IMG/VR virus record: IMGVR_UViG_3300031918_000171
Coordinates: 1 to 20,198 of that record
Length of the DNA stretch: 20,198 nt
From: a virus
Strand: one strand, 5' to 3'
The notes below the pieces were generated by a model, which saw only the letters and a program-made list of their open reading frames with translations, ran no database searches and was not told the DNA's origin. Positions 4,352 through 18,393 of the stretch are shown piece by piece (positions within the stretch are counted from its first letter, which is position 1; the number at the start of each line of letters is the position of its first letter). The translations under genes and the position numbers were made by a program.

Positions 4352-5443
4352 TTAAGCCAATGTTGCACGTAGAACTGCACCGTAACCACGATTTCCTTCG
4401 AAAATCTTTGAACCCCATACTAGAAGTCCTTTACATGTAGATACGAATGATGTTGGGTCTGCTTCAGAAGGGATAACAGAAACTTTGTTGATTTGCATTG
4501 CAAATGAACAGTATTCTGTTGTACCAGCTAAGAACCAGTAACCATTTGTATTATCACCAGGAACAAGTTCACTTGTGTAAACATCGAATCCTGCTATTCT
4601 ACCGATAGTTCCTCCTACAACTACTTTATTATAAGAATCACCTACTGCTGGAATAAATTCTGGAGCTTGCATTAGTAAACCTTCGAATTGAGAGTTTATA
4701 ACCAAGAAACGACCTGCTTTTGGTGTTAGAGACTTACCTAGAGCTGTACGAAGAGCAACTATATTTGCATATACGTTAGACTTTGTAAGAGCAATAGCTA
4801 CCGCACCTGCGATTGAGTAAGTTGTTGCTGAAACTGCACCTCCTGTATAAGCAACTCCATCAAGGTCTTTGATAGTTATACTTGTACCTGATGTGTATGC
4901 AGTAACTAGGTAAGATTTTGACAAACCTGTTATTGTAAATGTTCCACCAACCATACTTGCTGTGAAAGTTGTACCAGTACCTGTAACAACACCTGTTGTT
5001 GCTGCTACTGCGGCTGTACCTGTTGCATAAGCTGTACCAACTACGTTTGAAGCGTTGACACCTTTTGCCATCTTTCCTAGAAGAGCTGCGTCAAGGTATT
5101 CAGAGATTACTCCCTTTGAACTTTGAGCATATTCATTAATAGCACTTATATCGTTTTGAATCTTATCTACATCGTCAACTCCGAAGTCGAAGTATTTCAT
5201 TGTATCAATTATCAAATCTTCATAAGTTGGGTTAAGGTCTTGCTTAACTAGAGTCATACCTTTAGTATAATCGTTAAGAGTTACTTTACCTGCTGTACGA
5301 ACACGAACTCTATCTCCACTTTCCTTAATAGTACCTTCGTACTTTGTGTTTGTTATTTTTGTATAAATAGTCTCATTATATAGAATTTCTATAAGTTTAA
5401 GAGAATATTTTGTGGGCGTAAAAGCCGCTAAATTGTTTGCCAT
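4352..5443 (-). CDS. Major capsid protein with beta-rich insertion (363 aa)
   Basis: This is a probable HK97-fold coat protein. The opening (FTPTKYSLKLIEILYNETIY...ITN..YEGTIKESGD) and the following RVRVRTAGKVTLNDY strand match P22-coat-like and related major capsid proteins, and the length is typical. Residues about 135-213 are a Thr/Gly/Val-rich beta segment (VVTGTGTTFTASMVGG, YLVTAYTSGTSITIKD) that looks like an Ig-like or surface insertion. The closing part (FEGLLMQAPEFIPAVGDS, VVGGTIGRIAGFDVYTSELVP, FAMQINKVSVI) is the usual capsid C-terminal domain. It has more G and C in third codon positions than its neighbours, as expected for a very highly expressed gene. The start context is CAATATG without a Shine-Dalgarno site. 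Confidence 0.88.
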   Translation of the reverse strand: MANNLAAFTPTKYSLKLIEILYNETIYTKITNTKYEGTIKESGDRVRVRTAGKVTLNDYTKGMTLVKQDLNPTYEDLIIDTMKYFDFGVDDVDKIQNDISAINEYAQSSKGVISEYLDAALLGKMAKGVNASNVVGTAYATGTAAVAATTGVVTGTGTTFTASMVGGTFTITGLSKSYLVTAYTSGTSITIKDLDGVAYTGGAVSATTYSIAGAVAIALTKSNVYANIVALRTALGKSLTPKAGRFLVINSQFEGLLMQAPEFIPAVGDSYNKVVVGGTIGRIAGFDVYTSELVPGDNTNGYWFLAGTTEYCSFAMQINKVSVIPSEADPTSFVSTCKGLLVWGSKIFEGNRGYGAVLRATLA

Positions 5444-8930: not shown

Positions 8931-10217
8931 TTACATAATCCCAAGTTCTGGGTACATTGGTTCTACACCTCCATAAACTGATTGATTTGAGTATTGATTT
9001 ATTCTTATTGGTTGAGTTGGTATTTGCCAAACAGATAATGCTAATGACATAATTCTATCATCATGTTTACCGTCTGGAACCTGAATAGAAGTAGTACCAT
9101 TTTCATTAAGATTATATGACATAGACTTAAGTTCAGTTATAAGAACATCATCATTTGGTATTTTTATCTTATCTTGTTCTAATAATATTTGTAGATTACG
9201 TAATAAGTCAGTTCTACTTGTTTTATTAAACCTAAATGGTGTTATGTTCATTCCTCTTGAATATAAATCATCAAATATTGGTTCACCAACTCCAGTAGAG
9301 TCAATTACTATCATTCCTTTATTATGTTTTAGATATGCATTCTCAATTCTAGCCTTTTGTAGGTTATAATCCATTTGATTAAATGAATCTTGTTTTAAAA
9401 GATGGAAATCATTAAGGTTAAATGGAGAAATAACAGTAAAGTCATTATATTTAGCTAAGTCAACACCAAGTTGAAACATAGCAAGTTCACTTGATTTATA
9501 TTCTTCTATTTTATATGTATTTTCATCTATACGTTTAAAGAATCCAAGTCCATTATCTAAGAAAGTACAATAATACTCTTGTTTAAATAAGTCAGATGGC
9601 ATTTCTTTACGAGCATCTTCTAATTGTTCTGGTGTTAATGCTCTTGTTTTATCAACAGTAAGAACTTCACAGAACCATTTAGGGTCATGTTCTATTGTTT
9701 TCATTAGGTCCCATGCGTGATTGATTCCACGGGGAGTCATAATGAAGATAGCCCATCCTCCGTTTTCACGTAGAATAGGTGATATGAAGTTCCATACGTC
9801 AGGTTTCATAAGAGAGTACTCCGAGAATACTACTCCAATAGGATTTGTTCCAACGATACGGTCAATGTTATCAGCTCCAACCATCTGAAGAATAGAACCA
9901 TTAATAAGTTCTATAATCATATCTGATTGGTTGATTGATTTAACTATTTCTTTAGGAAAATGGTCTAGAAATTTGAATCCATCTTTGTCGGCACCTGTCC
10001 AGATAACCTTTTTAGCCTGTGCATAAGTAGGTAAGAAGTAATAATAAGTTCCTTTACGTTCCATCATCTTCTTTGGAAGATTTGCAAATATAGTTTTATC
10101 TTTACCAGAACGTCTATGTGCAACCCAATAGAGTCTATCAATACCAGAGTCCCAAGCTTTTAGGATTGGTAACTGATAATCACGTGGTTTAAAGTGGTAC
10201 GGTAGAGTTATCTCCAT
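8931..10217 (-). CDS. terL: Terminase large subunit (428 aa)
   Basis: This is the packaging motor ATPase and nuclease. Walker A is at residues 34-41 (HRRSGKDK), Walker B at 128-134 (GVVFSEY, with catalytic Glu133), and a motif III-like coupling segment at 159-164 (IMTPRG). The RNase H-like nuclease domain carries acidic residues D253 (LGVDLAKYNDF), D306 (GMIVIDSTGVGEP) and D386/D387 (DGKHDDRIMSLALS). Length and order are standard and the protein looks intact. The start at 10217 follows the small-terminase TAA by one base (TAATATG), suggesting coupled translation. It cuts and translocates concatemeric DNA through the portal; the packaging mode (cos or pac) cannot be told from this sequence. 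Confidence 0.95.
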   Translation of the reverse strand: MEITLPYHFKPRDYQLPILKAWDSGIDRLYWVAHRRSGKDKTIFANLPKKMMERKGTYYYFLPTYAQAKKVIWTGADKDGFKFLDHFPKEIVKSINQSDMIIELINGSILQMVGADNIDRIVGTNPIGVVFSEYSLMKPDVWNFISPILRENGGWAIFIMTPRGINHAWDLMKTIEHDPKWFCEVLTVDKTRALTPEQLEDARKEMPSDLFKQEYYCTFLDNGLGFFKRIDENTYKIEEYKSSELAMFQLGVDLAKYNDFTVISPFNLNDFHLLKQDSFNQMDYNLQKARIENAYLKHNKGMIVIDSTGVGEPIFDDLYSRGMNITPFRFNKTSRTDLLRNLQILLEQDKIKIPNDDVLITELKSMSYNLNENGTTSIQVPDGKHDDRIMSLALSVWQIPTQPIRINQYSNQSVYGGVEPMYPELGIM

Positions 10218-10218
10218 A

Positions 10219-10899
10219 TTATTTTTCTTCTATTACTGCTTCTAATATTTTATCTTCAACAATCTTAATTGTTTCATCAATAACTTGATTTTCAATTTGC
10301 ACTGGTGTATCTGCATAATTTACAGAATTAATTTTTATCTCACCTTGCATATTACCTTTTACTTCTGTCTTAGTAGAATAACCTTCATCTTTTCCTAATG
10401 TAGTCATAATAGTTTTAGAAGCAGATTCAACAACACGTAATAAATCTACATCTACTTCTTCTTGTTGTTCCATTACTGGTTTACCATCATTATCTTTTCC
10501 TACTTCAACTAATTTCATCTTAGTCCAAGGTAAATTAAGTATTTTGGAATAATTACGTTCAGCATTAGACATCATACTAGAACGTCTAAGTTTATCTTTC
10601 TTTTCCTTAAACCATTTTTGATTACCAATATTAATAGAAGTATTTTCAGAAAAACCTGCTTTCATAGCAGCACCTTTAGCATTAGGATTACCACTCCTCC
10701 AAGACTTAACATATAGGTCCCAACATAGTTGTCTACGTGAGTAATCCTGATTCTTATTTCTTTCAGATGGAGGAGTAACAATATTACCTACCTTAGATAT
10801 ATATACTTCTTCTTCAGTACCATCATCAAGAGTTATAGTTCTAGTTTCACCATGTTCAAGAGGTTCAACTAAATCAATTTTCTTTGGTAATTCTGACAT
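10219..10899 (-). CDS. terS: Terminase small subunit-like protein (226 aa)
   Basis: The protein lies one base upstream of the large terminase. A central segment (residues about 55-95: YSRRQLCWDLYVKSWRSGNP, then AAMKAGFSENTSINIGNQ) looks like the helix-turn-helix with the 'A..AGFS..TA...G..W' pattern seen in small terminases, which recognise the packaging site. A helical oligomerisation section (LLRVVESASKTIMTTLG) and an acidic C-terminal tail follow. Its N-terminal 50 residues are an extra acidic region. The start at 10899 is in TAATATG, one base from the stop of the preceding gene. The assignment rests on this motif and synteny. Confidence 0.75.
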   Translation of the reverse strand: MSELPKKIDLVEPLEHGETRTITLDDGTEEEVYISKVGNIVTPPSERNKNQDYSRRQLCWDLYVKSWRSGNPNAKGAAMKAGFSENTSINIGNQKWFKEKKDKLRRSSMMSNAERNYSKILNLPWTKMKLVEVGKDNDGKPVMEQQEEVDVDLLRVVESASKTIMTTLGKDEGYSTKTEVKGNMQGEIKINSVNYADTPVQIENQVIDETIKIVEDKILEAVIEEK

Positions 10900-11198: not shown

Positions 11199-11227
11199 AT
11201 TATAGCATATATTAAATGATTTGTCAA
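11199..11227 (-). promoter_or_regulatory. Consensus leftward promoter of terminase operon (leaderless)
   Basis: On the minus strand TTGACA (plus 11222-11227), 17 bases, TATAAT (plus 11199-11204). The expected transcription start is about 11192, one base from the ATG at 11191. It is divergent from the rightward promoter at 11281 and shares the DnaA-box array between them. Confidence 0.85.
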
Positions 11228-11237
11228 GTTATATACA

Positions 11238-11269
11238 TTATCCACATAGTTATCCACAGTTTATACACA
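11238..11269 (+). promoter_or_regulatory. Three perfect DnaA-box sequences between divergent promoters
   Basis: TTATCCACA at 11238-11246 and 11250-11258 and TTATACACA at 11261-11269 all match the DnaA consensus TTATNCACA, in the same orientation and 11-12 bases apart, roughly one helix turn. A weaker copy (TTATCAACT) starts at 11273 and leads into the rightward -35. The array could be a replication origin element, a DnaA-controlled promoter switch, or an operator for a phage protein that recognises the same sequence. AT-rich DNA lies to both sides. Confidence 0.8.
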
Positions 11270-11280
11270 TAGTTATCAAC

Positions 11281-11309
11281 TTGACATTAAGTATAAATTA
11301 TGCTATAAT
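11281..11309 (+). promoter_or_regulatory. Consensus rightward promoter of RNA-endonuclease unit
   Basis: TTGACA 11281-11286, 17 bases, TATAAT 11304-11309. Transcription should start near 11316, giving a leader of about 280 nt before the endonuclease ATG at 11596. Confidence 0.87.
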
Positions 11310-11391
11310 GGGTATACTGGAATAAAGGTGGGCGAATCAATGAGCCTTATTCTGGAAGCCAACTTAAATCATTGAGTTGTTCCACTCTAAA

Positions 11392-11408
11392 ACCTAGGGG
11401 AGGAGTAA
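11392..11408 (+). repeat. Direct repeat of ribosome-site region, upstream copy
   Basis: The 17 bases beginning ACCTAGGGGAGGAG match 11573-11589 (ACCTAAAGGAGGAG...) at 14 of 17 positions, 181 bases apart. The downstream copy is the endonuclease's Shine-Dalgarno site; this copy has no start codon in range. It may be a decoy, a relic of an insertion between the two copies, or an RNA structural repeat. Confidence 0.55.
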
Positions 11409-11572
11409 CACTAATAATAACATTCAACTATAAGTTAATCTTGTGTTATTATATTACGGATTGTACGGCTTAAGCTATGTGAATCTAGAGAAGATTAAAA
11501 TATCTACCAAGAGAAAATGGATAAAATAGATATTGAGTTTTATAGCCACACCATAGGCTATTATTCTCTCTT

Positions 11573-11589
11573 ACCTAAAGGAGGAGCAA
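11573..11589 (+). promoter_or_regulatory. Strong Shine-Dalgarno site of DUF559 gene (downstream repeat copy)
   Basis: AAAGGAGGAG (11577-11586) precedes the ATG at 11596 at workable spacing. It is the only strong ribosome binding site placed before a gene in the window. It belongs to the second copy of the ACCTA-RR-GGAGGAG repeat. Confidence 0.75.
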
Positions 11590-11595
11590 AAAATC

Positions 11596-11943
11596 ATGAA
11601 TAAAGAAATACAAAGAAATAACTCTAAATATAGAATAACACTTATTAAAAAAGCAACTAAAGAAGAACTTATATTTAAGCAATATCTAAATGATAATCAT
11701 ATTAAGTTTAACTTTCAGAAAGGATTCTTTAAACCATTTCACAGAATTTGTGATTTTTATATTAAGAAATACAGATTAATTATTGAAATAGATGGAGGTT
11801 ATCATAAAGAAACCAAAGCAAAAGATGATTTAAAAGATAAACTATGGAGCCGATTTAAAACATTAAGAATACTAAACGAGCAAATAAATGATGGTAGTTA
11901 TAAAACTATATTTGAATCATTTATAAAAAATAACACTCATTAA
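11596..11943 (+). CDS. DUF559-type endonuclease (115 aa)
   Basis: This small PD-(D/E)XK-like nuclease of the DUF559/Vsr-related group has an N-terminal helix with E24 (TKEELIFKQYLND), then FKPFHRICDFYIKKYRLIIEIDGGYH. In this motif D53, E64 and D66 are the likely metal ligands and H70 is conserved in the family. The C-terminal 'RFKTLRILNEQI' strand and helix are also typical. The length is near-complete for the family's catalytic domain alone, so it is a minimal, stand-alone nuclease, probably a homing or defence-type enzyme. It has a strong Shine-Dalgarno site, unlike every other gene here, which points to recent acquisition together with its structured leader. The stop codon lies inside the terminator stem. 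Confidence 0.8.
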   Translation: MNKEIQRNNSKYRITLIKKATKEELIFKQYLNDNHIKFNFQKGFFKPFHRICDFYIKKYRLIIEIDGGYHKETKAKDDLKDKLWSRFKTLRILNEQINDGSYKTIFESFIKNNTH

Positions 11944-11960
11944 TTGGGTGTTATTTTTTA
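11926..11960 (+). terminator. Intrinsic terminator of endonuclease unit
   Basis: An 11-bp stem (11928-11938 with 11946-11956, one G-U pair) with a 7-base loop is followed by a T-run. It is preceded by an A-run, so it may stop transcription in both directions. It overlaps the last codons of the endonuclease and closes the unit that begins at the 11281 promoter. Confidence 0.85.
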
Positions 11961-12072
11961 TTTATCTTTGTAATACAATAGTTGTCTAAAATATGATGGT
12001 GGTATATTTACCGTATTTCGACACACAGGTTTTTTTCTTCCCCCCTAGTCGTCAACCATTTCCGTTTCAATT

Positions 12073-12094
12073 GACATACACTTGTATGTTTGTC
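12073..12094 (+). promoter_or_regulatory. 22-bp dyad, candidate operator 1
   Basis: The spaced palindrome reads GACA-ta-CACT-tg-TATG-tt-TGTC. The outer half-sites are perfect inverted repeats and the inner ones partial. It overlaps the -35 region of the promoter at 12082-12110, the expected place for a repressor. The layout matches the dyad at 12181. Confidence 0.6.
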
Positions 12095-12110
12095 AAGTAT
12101 GTGTTATAAT
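12082..12110 (+). promoter_or_regulatory. Rightward promoter overlapping operator 1
   Basis: TTGTAT (12082-12087), 17 bases, TATAAT (12105-12110) with an extended -10 (TGTTATAAT). An isolated TTGACA lies at 12071 as part of the dyad. No gene lies on this strand until 12651, so it would give a long leader or an untranslated RNA. Confidence 0.55.
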
Positions 12111-12180
12111 ATTGTTGCCATACATAAATGATAACAACACACTTAACCCATTATGTCAAATAGTGAAGCGACATAGAGTT

Positions 12181-12202
12181 GACAGTCATAGTTATGTATG
12201 TC
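12181..12202 (+). promoter_or_regulatory. 22-bp dyad, candidate operator 2
   Basis: GACA-gt-CATA-gt-TATG-ta-TGTC is a perfect spaced palindrome in both half-site pairs and shares spacing and outer bases with the dyad at 12073. It starts 108 bases downstream of that site, about ten helix turns, so two repressor dimers could interact by looping. Confidence 0.6.
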
Positions 12203-12477
12203 ATAGTATTCGATTGACAAATATTTATTGTTGTGTTGTAGTGAGTGTTTGCCATTGACATGAGAGACAGAATGTGCAGTTAACCCCATACTATGACACA
12301 CAACATAATTATGTCCATAGCCCTTAAATGCTCCTATAAACAATAAAAAACATAAAAATGTCTTATGTATCAATGCATATCATAAACTTATTATAACTCA
12401 TTATACGAACATATAAGACTATATATACATAATTACAATAATGTGTTATAATAAAATGATAATATACATAATATCTA

Positions 12478-12504
12478 TTGACAATACAATTATTATGTTA
12501 TAAT
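12478..12504 (+). promoter_or_regulatory. Probable promoter of rightward accessory operon
   Basis: TTGACA (12478-12483) and TATAAT (12499-12504) are 15 bases apart, shorter than optimal, but the -10 is extended (TGTTATAAT), which can compensate. A further TATAAT lies at 12594. Either would place the start of the accessory-gene mRNA shortly upstream of the ATG at 12651. Confidence 0.5.
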
Positions 12505-12650
12505 GCTTAAAATAATGCTTATAATATAATATTAGTTTTGAATAACATAAAATAAACTTTTGTCAAATATTAGGTATTATTTTTATATAGGTGTATAATC
12601 TTAGTAAGAGTTAAGCAATAATATTATAAATAAAAAGCTACTCTAATAAT

Positions 12651-12830
12651 ATGAACATAGAAGAGAAAGTGAAAAGTGTTAAAAGTATTGAAAAAAATAT
12701 AGAATCTATAAGTAATGCACTGAGTACAATTTGTACCTATGAAGAATATGACAGTAGAGATATAAAAAGAACCCTACGCAAAGAGGTAGAAAGACTAGAA
12801 AAATTATTAGATACAATACTAAAAGACTAA
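12651..12830 (+). CDS. Small helical protein (59 aa)
   Basis: This charged, wholly helical product (MNIEEKVKSVKSIEKNIESI, then a C-terminal REVERLEKLLDTILKD-like helix) probably forms a coiled coil or helical hairpin. The ATG is in a TAATAATATG context. It is the first gene after the regulatory region. Similar short coiled-coil proteins are common early phage products, but no function is recognised. Confidence 0.65.
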   Translation: MNIEEKVKSVKSIEKNIESISNALSTICTYEEYDSRDIKRTLRKEVERLEKLLDTILKD

Positions 12831-12837
12831 TAATAAT

Positions 12838-12951
12838 ATGCATAAAGATTATAATATAAAAATGGTTGCTATAGTGTTCTTATGGGGTGTTGGGTTATGT
12901 AGCTTTGCTTATGGTTCTCTATGGGTATTAGTAAAATTATCAGTTAAGTAG
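12838..12951 (+). CDS. Single-pass membrane microprotein (37 aa)
   Basis: A short polar start (MHKDYNIK) is followed by a hydrophobic span (MVAIVFLWGVGLCSFAYGSL, then WVLVKL) and ends in VK with a TAG stop. It fits an inner-membrane microprotein. The ATG again sits in TAATAATATG, 7 bases after the previous stop. Possible roles include superinfection exclusion or holin-like activity; none is shown. Confidence 0.55.
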   Translation: MHKDYNIKMVAIVFLWGVGLCSFAYGSLWVLVKLSVK

Positions 12952-12963
12952 TATAATAAATAT

Positions 12964-13170
12964 ATGATATTTAACATATTAGACAAAGACGACAATGATA
13001 AAATAATAGGGACTTTTATTTGTAATATAGACCCATTAGAAATAGAAAAAGAATTAGTTATCTATACAGAAGAAAATCCTGAATTATACAATGTGGAAGA
13101 CTTCATTGAATACCTGGGACACAAGGGTTATCAAATAGAAAGTGTAGAAACATTTAACTTGTATATGTAA
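12964..13170 (+). CDS. Small acidic hypothetical protein (68 aa)
   Basis: This strongly acidic, soluble product has beta-type segments (MIFNILDKDDNDKIIGTFIC) followed by a helical end (VEDFIEYLGHKGYQIESVE). The ATG is in AAATATATG, 12 bases after the previous stop. Acidic small early proteins often mimic DNA or bind host enzymes, but nothing in the sequence proves this. A 6-bp inverted repeat (TATCAA-AGC-TTGATA, 13177-13191) lies just after it without a T-run. Confidence 0.6.
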   Translation: MIFNILDKDDNDKIIGTFICNIDPLEIEKELVIYTEENPELYNVEDFIEYLGHKGYQIESVETFNLYM

Positions 13171-17084: not shown

Positions 17085-17232
17085 ATAACATAGTGGTAGA
17101 TTTAAGAAGGGGTATAGATATTATAGTCCTCTCAATATAATATTCTTTGGTAGTGATTGGGTGTCGACAGCTACATCACTAGTATCCCACCTTAAGTCTA
17201 TCACTAGAAACTTATTAATTAATGTAATACAC
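17085..17232 (+). ncRNA. Structured 5' leader of rtcB
   Basis: The leader contains a hairpin (AGGGG-TATA around 17108 pairing with TATA-GT-CCTCT around 17122-17132, with a 2-nt bulge). It also contains TAGTGAT (17151-17157), which can pair with ATCACTA at 17175-17181 or with its second copy at 17200-17206. TGGG (17158) can pair with CCCA (17186), which would make a pseudoknot with the first choice. The two ATCACTA copies are 25 bases apart, so a switch between alternative folds is possible. No start codon with good context lies inside it. Confidence 0.45.
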
Positions 17233-18393
17233 ATGAAAATAATTACAACAGAAAAAAAAGAAATAAAAATGTGGCTAGATGAAATCGAAGATGGAGCAAT
17301 GGAACAAATAAAACACCTTGCAAACCTACCTTTTACTTTCAAACACGTGGCTATAATGCCAGACAGTCATCAAGGTTATGGTATGCCTATTGGTGGAGTA
17401 CTAGCTACACAAGGAGTAATCATTCCAAACGCAGTAGGTGTTGACATAGGTTGTGGAATGTGTGCAGTGAAGACTTCATTAAAGATAGAAGACTTAAACC
17501 CTCACTTAAAAACAATCATGTCAGAAATTAGAAAAGTTATTCCTGTTGGATTTAATAAACATGAAGACATGCAAGACGAAGATTTAATGCCAAAGGGTTA
17601 TACTTATCTTGAAGTTTCATTTAGTGAATATGAAAATGCTAGACGTTCACTTGGTACTCTAGGTGGTGGCAATCACTTCATAGAGATACAAAAAGATACA
17701 GAAGGTTTTGTATGGATAATGATACATAGTGGTTCCCGTAACCTTGGAAAACAAGTTGCAGACTACTACAATAAGATTGCTATTGAGTTAAATAAAAAAT
17801 GGCATAGTTCAGTTCCAGAAGAATATGAGTTAGCTTTTTTACCAGAAGATTCAAAAGAAGGAAAAGCTTACTTAAATGAAATGCAATATTGTGTTGACTT
17901 TGCTTTAACAAACAGAAAGTTAATGATGGAAAGAGTAATGATTATTATTAGTAAAGAAACTAACGCTGTAGTTATCGGAGATATTATAAACATAGCTCAC
18001 AATTATGCTTCAAAAGAAAAACATTTCGGAAAAGAAGTTTGGGTACACCGCAAAGGAGCTACACTTGCTTACAAAGATACGATTGGAATCATCCCAGGTT
18101 CACAGGGAACTAAAAGCTATATCGTCAGAGGGAAAGGAAATATTTTTAGTTTTAAGTCCTGCTCACATGGAGCTGGTCGTAAAATGGGTAGAAAACAAGC
18201 TGAAAGGGAACTTAATCTCGAAGAAGAAATTAAACTCCTTAATGACAAAGGGATATTACATGGCATCAGAGGAATAAGTCAATTAGATGAAGCTACAGGA
18301 GCATATAAAGATATAGATATAGTTATGAAGAACCAAGAAGACTTAGTGGAAGTATTAGTCGAACTAACACCATTAGCTGTTATAAAAGGATAA
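17233..18393 (+). CDS. rtcB: RtcB-family RNA 3'-phosphate/5'-OH ligase (386 aa)
   Basis: RtcB joins RNA 3'-phosphate or 2',3'-cyclic phosphate ends to 5'-OH ends using GTP and Mn2+, through an enzyme-histidine-GMP intermediate. The sequence keeps the family's signature blocks: PDSHQGYGMP (H46), GVDIGCGM (D71, C74), LGGGNHFIE (H148), HSGSRNLG (H165), NIAHNYA (H256), HRKGAT (H272), GSQGTKSYIVRG and SCSHGAGR (H312, the guanylated histidine by family analogy). The ATG at 17233 is chosen because a GTG at 17161 would add 24 unrelated residues from the structured leader. In phages the enzyme most plausibly repairs tRNAs cleaved by host anticodon nucleases. It is followed by a one-base overlap (TAATG) with the next gene. 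Confidence 0.93.
   Translation: MKIITTEKKEIKMWLDEIEDGAMEQIKHLANLPFTFKHVAIMPDSHQGYGMPIGGVLATQGVIIPNAVGVDIGCGMCAVKTSLKIEDLNPHLKTIMSEIRKVIPVGFNKHEDMQDEDLMPKGYTYLEVSFSEYENARRSLGTLGGGNHFIEIQKDTEGFVWIMIHSGSRNLGKQVADYYNKIAIELNKKWHSSVPEEYELAFLPEDSKEGKAYLNEMQYCVDFALTNRKLMMERVMIIISKETNAVVIGDIINIAHNYASKEKHFGKEVWVHRKGATLAYKDTIGIIPGSQGTKSYIVRGKGNIFSFKSCSHGAGRKMGRKQAERELNLEEEIKLLNDKGILHGIRGISQLDEATGAYKDIDIVMKNQEDLVEVLVELTPLAVIKG

Follow-up and report, generated by a model that had tools for sequence, protein, structure and literature searches.

A structured RNA conserved among unrelated phages, a candidate replication-origin transcript

Results

Layout of the locus

The window, by which we mean the whole stretch of DNA analysed, is the 20,198-base record of an uncultured phage. 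According to its list of open reading frames, gene direction switches at ~11.2 kb, with leftward genes below this point (structural genes, TerL, a TerS-like gene and a 96-aa ORF) and rightward genes above it, and a divergent pair of perfect sigma-70 promoters occupies this point (Table 1). An earlier note, made from the letters of the sequence, had described the rightward promoter, a gene-free stretch of about 280 nt behind it and, after a nuclease gene, a terminator; all three were confirmed, the promoter by a 12/12 score, the stretch by the finding of no ORF of at least 60 aa covering 11316-11595 and the terminator by prediction. The intervening segment encodes the structured non-coding RNA described here.

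Table 1. Features of the early/late border in the window
Feature	Position	Strand	Basis or remark
TerL	8931-10217	leftward	matches phrog_2
TerS-like gene	10219-10899	leftward	called by position
Late-operon promoter (small ORF-TerS-TerL), divergent	11199..11227	-	12/12 consensus; promoter score
DnaA-box array	11238..11280	+	11-12 bp phasing; abuts -35 of RNA promoter
Exact DnaA box TTATCCACA	11238	+	
Exact DnaA box TTATCCACA	11250	+	
Near-consensus DnaA box TTATACACA	11261	+	
Degenerate DnaA box TTATCAAC	11273	+	touches -35 of rightward promoter
RNA promoter TTGACA-N17-TATAAT	11281..11309	+	12/12 consensus; promoter score
Structured non-coding RNA, ~275-280 nt	11316..11590	+	conserved in L026, L008 and ~16 further lineages
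Hairpin P1 (arms 11317-11328 / 11345-11355)	11317..11355	+	covariation
GGCGAA motif in P1 loop	11331-11336	+	
Loop-1 pairing element TCAATGA	11337-11343	+	covariation
GCC	11358-11360	+	can pair with loop GGC 11331-11333
Branch-specific P2 (CAAC 11360-11363 / GTTG 11376-11379)	11358..11379 region	+	
Partner element TCATTGA	11369-11375	+	7/7 complementary to TCAATGA
Hairpin P4 (arms 11414-11423 / 11443-11452)	11414..11452	+	compensatory changes, window/L026/L008
Hairpin P5	11459..11485	+	window/L026/L008 comparison
Hairpin P6 (outer stem, CCA-AGAGAAAA-TGG, 3′ bulge ATAAAA)	11499..11534	+	covariation
Hairpin P7 (ATAGCC-ACACCATA-GGCTAT)	11542..11561	+	window/L026/L008 comparison
3′ hairpin P8	11568..11586	+	3′ arm is GGAGGAG 11580-11586
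DUF559 (PD-(D/E)XK / EDxHD-like) nuclease, 115 aa	11596..11943	+	Pfam PF04480
Rho-independent terminator	11923..11961	+	terminator prediction

The region beside this unit, from 11945 to 12965, comprises ~1 kb without convincing genes and carries several long imperfect inverted repeats together with repeated TTGACA/TGTCAA motifs. In this phage family a run of at least six C, with GTC no more than a few bases behind it, recurs 3′ of the RNA slot, in the window (~12040) and in lineages L006, L007, L010, L011, L014 and L017, and is perhaps a cos/pac or termination site. Further to the right, positions 17161-18393 encode an RtcB RNA ligase (PF01139, 3e-115).

A structured RNA family with a covarying 5′ pseudoknot

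Judged as a single sequence, the fold of the window RNA is unexceptional (z -1.5), so that the reality of the structure rests on its relatives. The first homologues (L026, L008/L009) were reached through TerL relatives and the remaining ones by scanning viral contigs for patterns and by applying a covariance model of 65 positions. Altogether ~19 phage lineages carry the RNA, namely the window and ~18 others (L026, L008, L010, L037, L038, L039, L041, L047, L050, L055, L056, L092, L096, L104, L107, L131, L151 and, more weakly, L162; the L047 copy is truncated), and the RNA is common to phages whose proteins are mostly unrelated.

The complementarity of the two window loops, as first noticed, was confirmed at 7/7 positions, and the homologue search proposed at that time bore it out. 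The L026 locus has 72% identity to the window over 325 nt, and its loops (GTGATAA/TTATCAC), like those of L008 (GTATGA/TCATAC), differ from the window's and are still complementary. Over 17 segmented members, in which the loop sequence is different every time, pairing is kept perfectly in nearly all (122 of 124 cells Watson-Crick, 1 G-U, 1 mismatch), and seven of the eight loop-pair positions switch pair type, most of them through all four types; loops taken from different members pair with each other over a mean of 3.1 bp (maximum 6). When membership was set by conserved sequence alone, 14 of 16 candidates had perfect loop pairing of 6-8 bp, and the L092 loops paired over 8 bp with one G-U; L109, which matches the sequence motif, was rejected as its loops do not pair.

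Further support came from the stems. Counted from the loop, the third P1 pair occurs in A-T, T-A, C-G and G-C forms, and P6, with the form NNN-AGAGAAAA-type loop-NNN plus a 3′ bulge, was found in 18 lineages, its 3-bp stem showing nine different pairing versions around the loop. Among window, L026 and L008, double-sided changes affect 22 of 60 predicted pairs, and P7 is unchanged apart from one C-G to U-G replacement. The matches of a first P6-loop pattern in L028-L031, L033 and L034 were discarded as chance. As far as comparison of sequences can show it, this is a real structured RNA family with a covarying 5′ pseudoknot and a P6 hairpin, and the claim of a structured RNA with its own promoter is thus supported.

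The earlier note had taken the two loops for a kissing hairpin pair. A separate hairpin 2 (CAAC/GTTG, CGAT/ATTG) is credible only in the window branch and in L107; in most other members it is absent and the partner strand lies directly 3′ of GGATGCCRATTAAA, and there the predicted pairing is that of a hairpin-type pseudoknot, between loop 1 and a downstream single strand. The spacer before GGCGAA rises with pairing length (1 nt for 6 bp, 2 for 7 and 3 for 8, with L038 and L104 as exceptions), as expected of a pseudoknot formed inside one molecule. A further possible pairing is that of the loop GGC/GGU with the GCC, which is invariant.

Searches against known RNAs

Rfam 15, searched at the gathering cut-off and at permissive E-values, returned chance matches only, with no match to the models for group I/II introns, tmRNA, riboswitches, ROOL/GOLLD or HEARO. 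No match was obtained by blastn of the RNA against the 50,697 phage records of an isolated-phage collection, or of one member against 72,556 plasmids. A covariance search of 398 genomes of Pseudomonadota, the phylum to which L048 is assigned, found none, a limited negative given that no positive control genome is known, and the two matches from a pattern scan of 84,980 genomes were both due to chance. No description of the RNA was found in the literature covered, which took in only a minority of subscription papers, and the family is apparently undescribed.

These searches bear on the possibility that we are dealing with a free, trans-acting ornate phage RNA or a host/phage regulator that merely happens to sit at the early/late boundary. 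ROOL and GOLLD are abundant RNAs that self-assemble. Kissing loops hold both of these phage RNAs together (PMC12286853), and the present RNA resembles them in being phage-encoded, structured and built on kissing or pseudoknot pairing. Its elaborate pseudoknot fold, its nature as a discrete unit with a promoter and, in L008, a P8 hairpin followed by nine T (T9), and the varying orientation of the RNA relative to its neighbours would all suit such a role. Unlike ROOL and GOLLD, however, it has no Rfam match to either, is about half as long (~280 nt vs their ~600-800) and was not seen in tRNA islands; the spacer rule favours intramolecular pairing, and a free RNA would leave the DnaA-box enrichment and the recurrent nuclease neighbours described below unexplained. 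We regard this reading as unlikely.

The gene behind the RNA is exchangeable

The small protein called a PD-(D/E)XK-like nuclease at the outset matches Pfam PF04480 well above the curated cut-off of 20.6 (2.7e-10, 40.5 bits), confirming that call; its single-sequence AlphaFold model was unusable (pLDDT 41), and a scan of viral contigs for close relatives gave no match. A DUF559 gene also lies directly 3′ of the RNA in the otherwise unrelated phage L131 (59.2 bits against PF04480; 38% identity to the window protein, E 2e-10), and no other protein of the window has a match in L131. The window protein shares Pfam DUF559 with the EDxHD / DUF559 (Vsr-like) nucleases, and its L131 homologue shows weak matches to 3hrl and 3r3p. 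The latter is I-Bth0305I, a mobile intron protein, unlike which the window nuclease is small and free-standing.

Other lineages carry other genes at this position. A small RNase HI gene lies directly 3′ of the RNA in L010 (4200-4622) and L050 (2760-3347), the only two of 26 records searched in which RNase HI matches were found, and, broken into two frames and called by reading, in L107 (~4640-5025). In L055 a 111-aa PD-(D/E)XK-like protein with weak, below-cut-off HSDR_N/NERD matches sits at the RNA 3′ end; TerS-like proteins (by reading) start there in L092 and L047, and proteins without an assigned family in L037 and L151. No ORF of at least 45 aa was found at the RNA 3′ end of L026, L008, L038 and L056. 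A nuclease gene therefore directly follows the RNA in six lineages (window, L131, L010, L050, L107 and L055), and since members were found through RNA patterns, this raw count is not biased towards nucleases.

The proposed link between the RNA and DUF559 thus holds in so far as it recurs in L131, with other nucleases taking the place in L010, L050, L107 and L055, but it is not a fixed pair. DUF559 is absent from the L026 and L008 loci, although these belong to the same phage family and locus as the window; L026, L008/L009 and most members have the RNA without DUF559, and three DUF559 relatives from phage records lack such an RNA. Because the neighbour varies in this way, the nuclease is, on the loci compared, best described as an exchangeable neighbour of the RNA and not as its fixed partner.

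These results weaken the idea of an RNA-nuclease module, in which the RNA would be scaffold or guide for the nuclease or both would move together. It gains from the three kinds of nuclease that start at the RNA 3′ end and from the fact that, in the comparison made, the window and L131 phages were found to share nothing beyond the RNA and DUF559. Yet several members have no gene at all in this place, the nuclease fold changes between lineages, DUF559 and the RNA each occur alone, and neither a guide-like segment nor a flanking boundary was found, which makes the module quite unlikely. The analogy drawn at first with HEARO and the IscB omega RNA, likewise structured RNAs adjoining a nuclease gene, did not hold, given that there is no Rfam match and that the nuclease is DUF559, of a different and exchangeable fold, and not IscB. 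Nor did the suggestion of a guide-like RNA: no guide segment is evident, the variable loop being taken up entirely by pairing within the RNA itself.

Start codons lie close to the RNA 3′ end, at offsets of 249-354 nt from the GGC motif. The strong ribosome site reported before the nuclease gene, GGAGGAG, is indeed present, but it is not free-standing, being at the same time the 3′ arm of P8, the last hairpin. Both observations would suit a cis-regulatory leader of the next gene, with P8 hiding the nuclease ribosome site; against this stand the four lineages with no ORF of at least 45 aa behind the RNA and the lack of any relationship among the downstream genes, and we consider a leader most improbable.

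Proximity to terminase genes

An HMM-confirmed TerL lies within ~1.6 kb of the RNA in ten lineages, and these TerLs span different families (phrog_2, phrog_979, Terminase_3, GpA); in L041 and L162 a TerL-like protein was recognised by reading, without a Pfam match. In L107, L038 and L092 blocks of late genes enclose the RNA, which adjoins terminase genes there, and the L038 RNA (~1831-1500) sits between TerL and portal on the strand opposite to both. A packaging RNA acting with terminase, in the manner of phi29 pRNA, would account for this proximity and for the position of the RNA directly upstream of the TerS-like genes of L092 and L047, and seemed a strong candidate until some members proved to be remote from terminase: the distance is 9-24 kb in L037, L056 and L151/L187. 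Moreover, some of the ten lineages come from a single phage family, a TerL (phrog_2 in the window) and not a phi29-type enzyme serves as packaging ATPase, no Rfam match was found, and the DnaA boxes would be unexplained. A packaging function is accordingly very unlikely, and we read the proximity to terminase as both elements lying at the early/late border.

DnaA boxes and gene divergence

The window contains a DnaA-box cluster, with two exact boxes and one near-consensus box in phase, next to the RNA promoter. Among 18 lineages, nine have an exact TTATCCACA in the 300 nt that precede the RNA and the other nine have none there; dinucleotide shuffles gave a mean of 0.07 lineages with a box and a maximum of 3 (2000 trials). 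The density of TTATCCACA is 2.08/kb upstream of the RNA vs 0.084/kb elsewhere in the same loci, and the enrichment extends to L056 and L151, whose terminase genes are far away. In four lineages of the window's phage family (L003, L004, L007 and L021) boxes and promoter are kept and the RNA that follows is unrelated. The DnaA boxes and the early/late divergence are the strongest associations of the RNA, and they point to a replication origin.

The cumulative GC skew of the window has its minimum at 11-12.5 kb, at the gene divergence, and a minimum at the same switch is also seen in L026 and L010. Since these minima coincide with switches in gene direction, transcription alone could explain them, and GC skew here cannot separate replication from transcription.

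The slot also holds other RNAs. In L003, L004 and L021, and partly in L006 and L017, the same promoter slot is occupied by a short RNA of another kind, which carries TTGGATGGTCC...TTGGATRCC-like repeats. Two TerL relatives, L015 (~8650-8230, minus strand) and L016 (~3450-3040, minus strand), have in it an unrelated RNA of ~420 nt, whose first elements hold TTATCTGA and TCAGATAA, 8/8 complementary, and which has a terminator at its end; this may be another origin RNA of the kissing or pseudoknot kind.

Discussion

Taken with due reserve, the explanation that we prefer, and to which we would give somewhat less than an even chance, is that the stand-alone ~280-nt RNA is made at a phage replication origin, as an origin transcript that serves to prime or to open replication. 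We infer this function; the enrichment of DnaA boxes, the independence from DUF559, the replacement by unrelated RNAs in the same slot and the nuclease neighbours can be read directly from the loci compared. Host DnaA would bind the box array and promote both opening and transcription from the abutting promoter; the RNA would fold co-transcriptionally, and the origin transcript would then prime leading-strand synthesis or hold the origin open, as may be compared with c2 PE1-T, ColE1 RNA II and T4 oriF. In such a scheme it would fall to the folded 5′ pseudoknot and P6 to retain or display the transcript, and a downstream nuclease, where there is one (RNase HI or a PD-(D/E)XK protein), may trim the RNA or an R-loop. 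A more specific version, in which one pseudoknot RNA is used at a phage origin by interchangeable nucleases (RNase HI, DUF559, other PD-(D/E)XK) of unrelated folds that have replaced one another, appears unlikely.

Several observations count against the origin-transcript reading. Exact boxes are missing in half of the lineages, RNase H was found in only three, and the RNA lies inside late-gene blocks in L107, L038 and L092, on the opposite strand in L038. Nor is any phage carrying this RNA known in culture. What is hardest to reconcile with priming in cis is the L008 hairpin with T9, which would release the transcript instead of leaving a hybrid, and which keeps the model of a free RNA alive. 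As for processing, host RNase H could be the partner.

ColE1 replication starts from a structured pre-primer. In T4, R-loops serve in priming, with a viral RNase H (PMC3016281). Our proposal shares with ColE1 RNA II and T4 oriF a transcript-initiated replication and an involvement of RNase H, both putative here; it differs in having no RNA I-like antisense, a different fold and the L008 terminator hairpin, and its R-loop is only proposed. In the lactococcal Ceduovirus (c2) the origin is intergenic, with the early and late modules diverging from it, and produces the non-coding PE1 transcript; it exists in three mutually unrelated types, each able to drive a plasmid (PMC7150918). To judge from sequence arrangement only, our locus is alike in its intergenic place, with early and late modules leading away on either side and a promoter predicted to drive a non-coding transcript, and also in that related phages (L003, L004, L007, L021) carry unrelated transcripts in the same slot. 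Unlike c2, the window has a DnaA-box array and one RNA fold is conserved over many unrelated phages, and there is no known sequence link between the two.

Origin transcripts and ornate phage RNAs are already known; what is new is an origin-linked RNA, conserved in fold and common to unrelated phages. It adds a family absent from Rfam and shared by ~19 lineages with mostly unrelated proteins. The nucleases of different folds that are swapped behind one RNA offer a natural experiment on the processing of such transcripts. If the link to the origin is true, this would be, to our knowledge, the first widely shared and structurally conserved origin RNA in phages, and transcript-initiated phage replication would become directly testable with a short cloned fragment.
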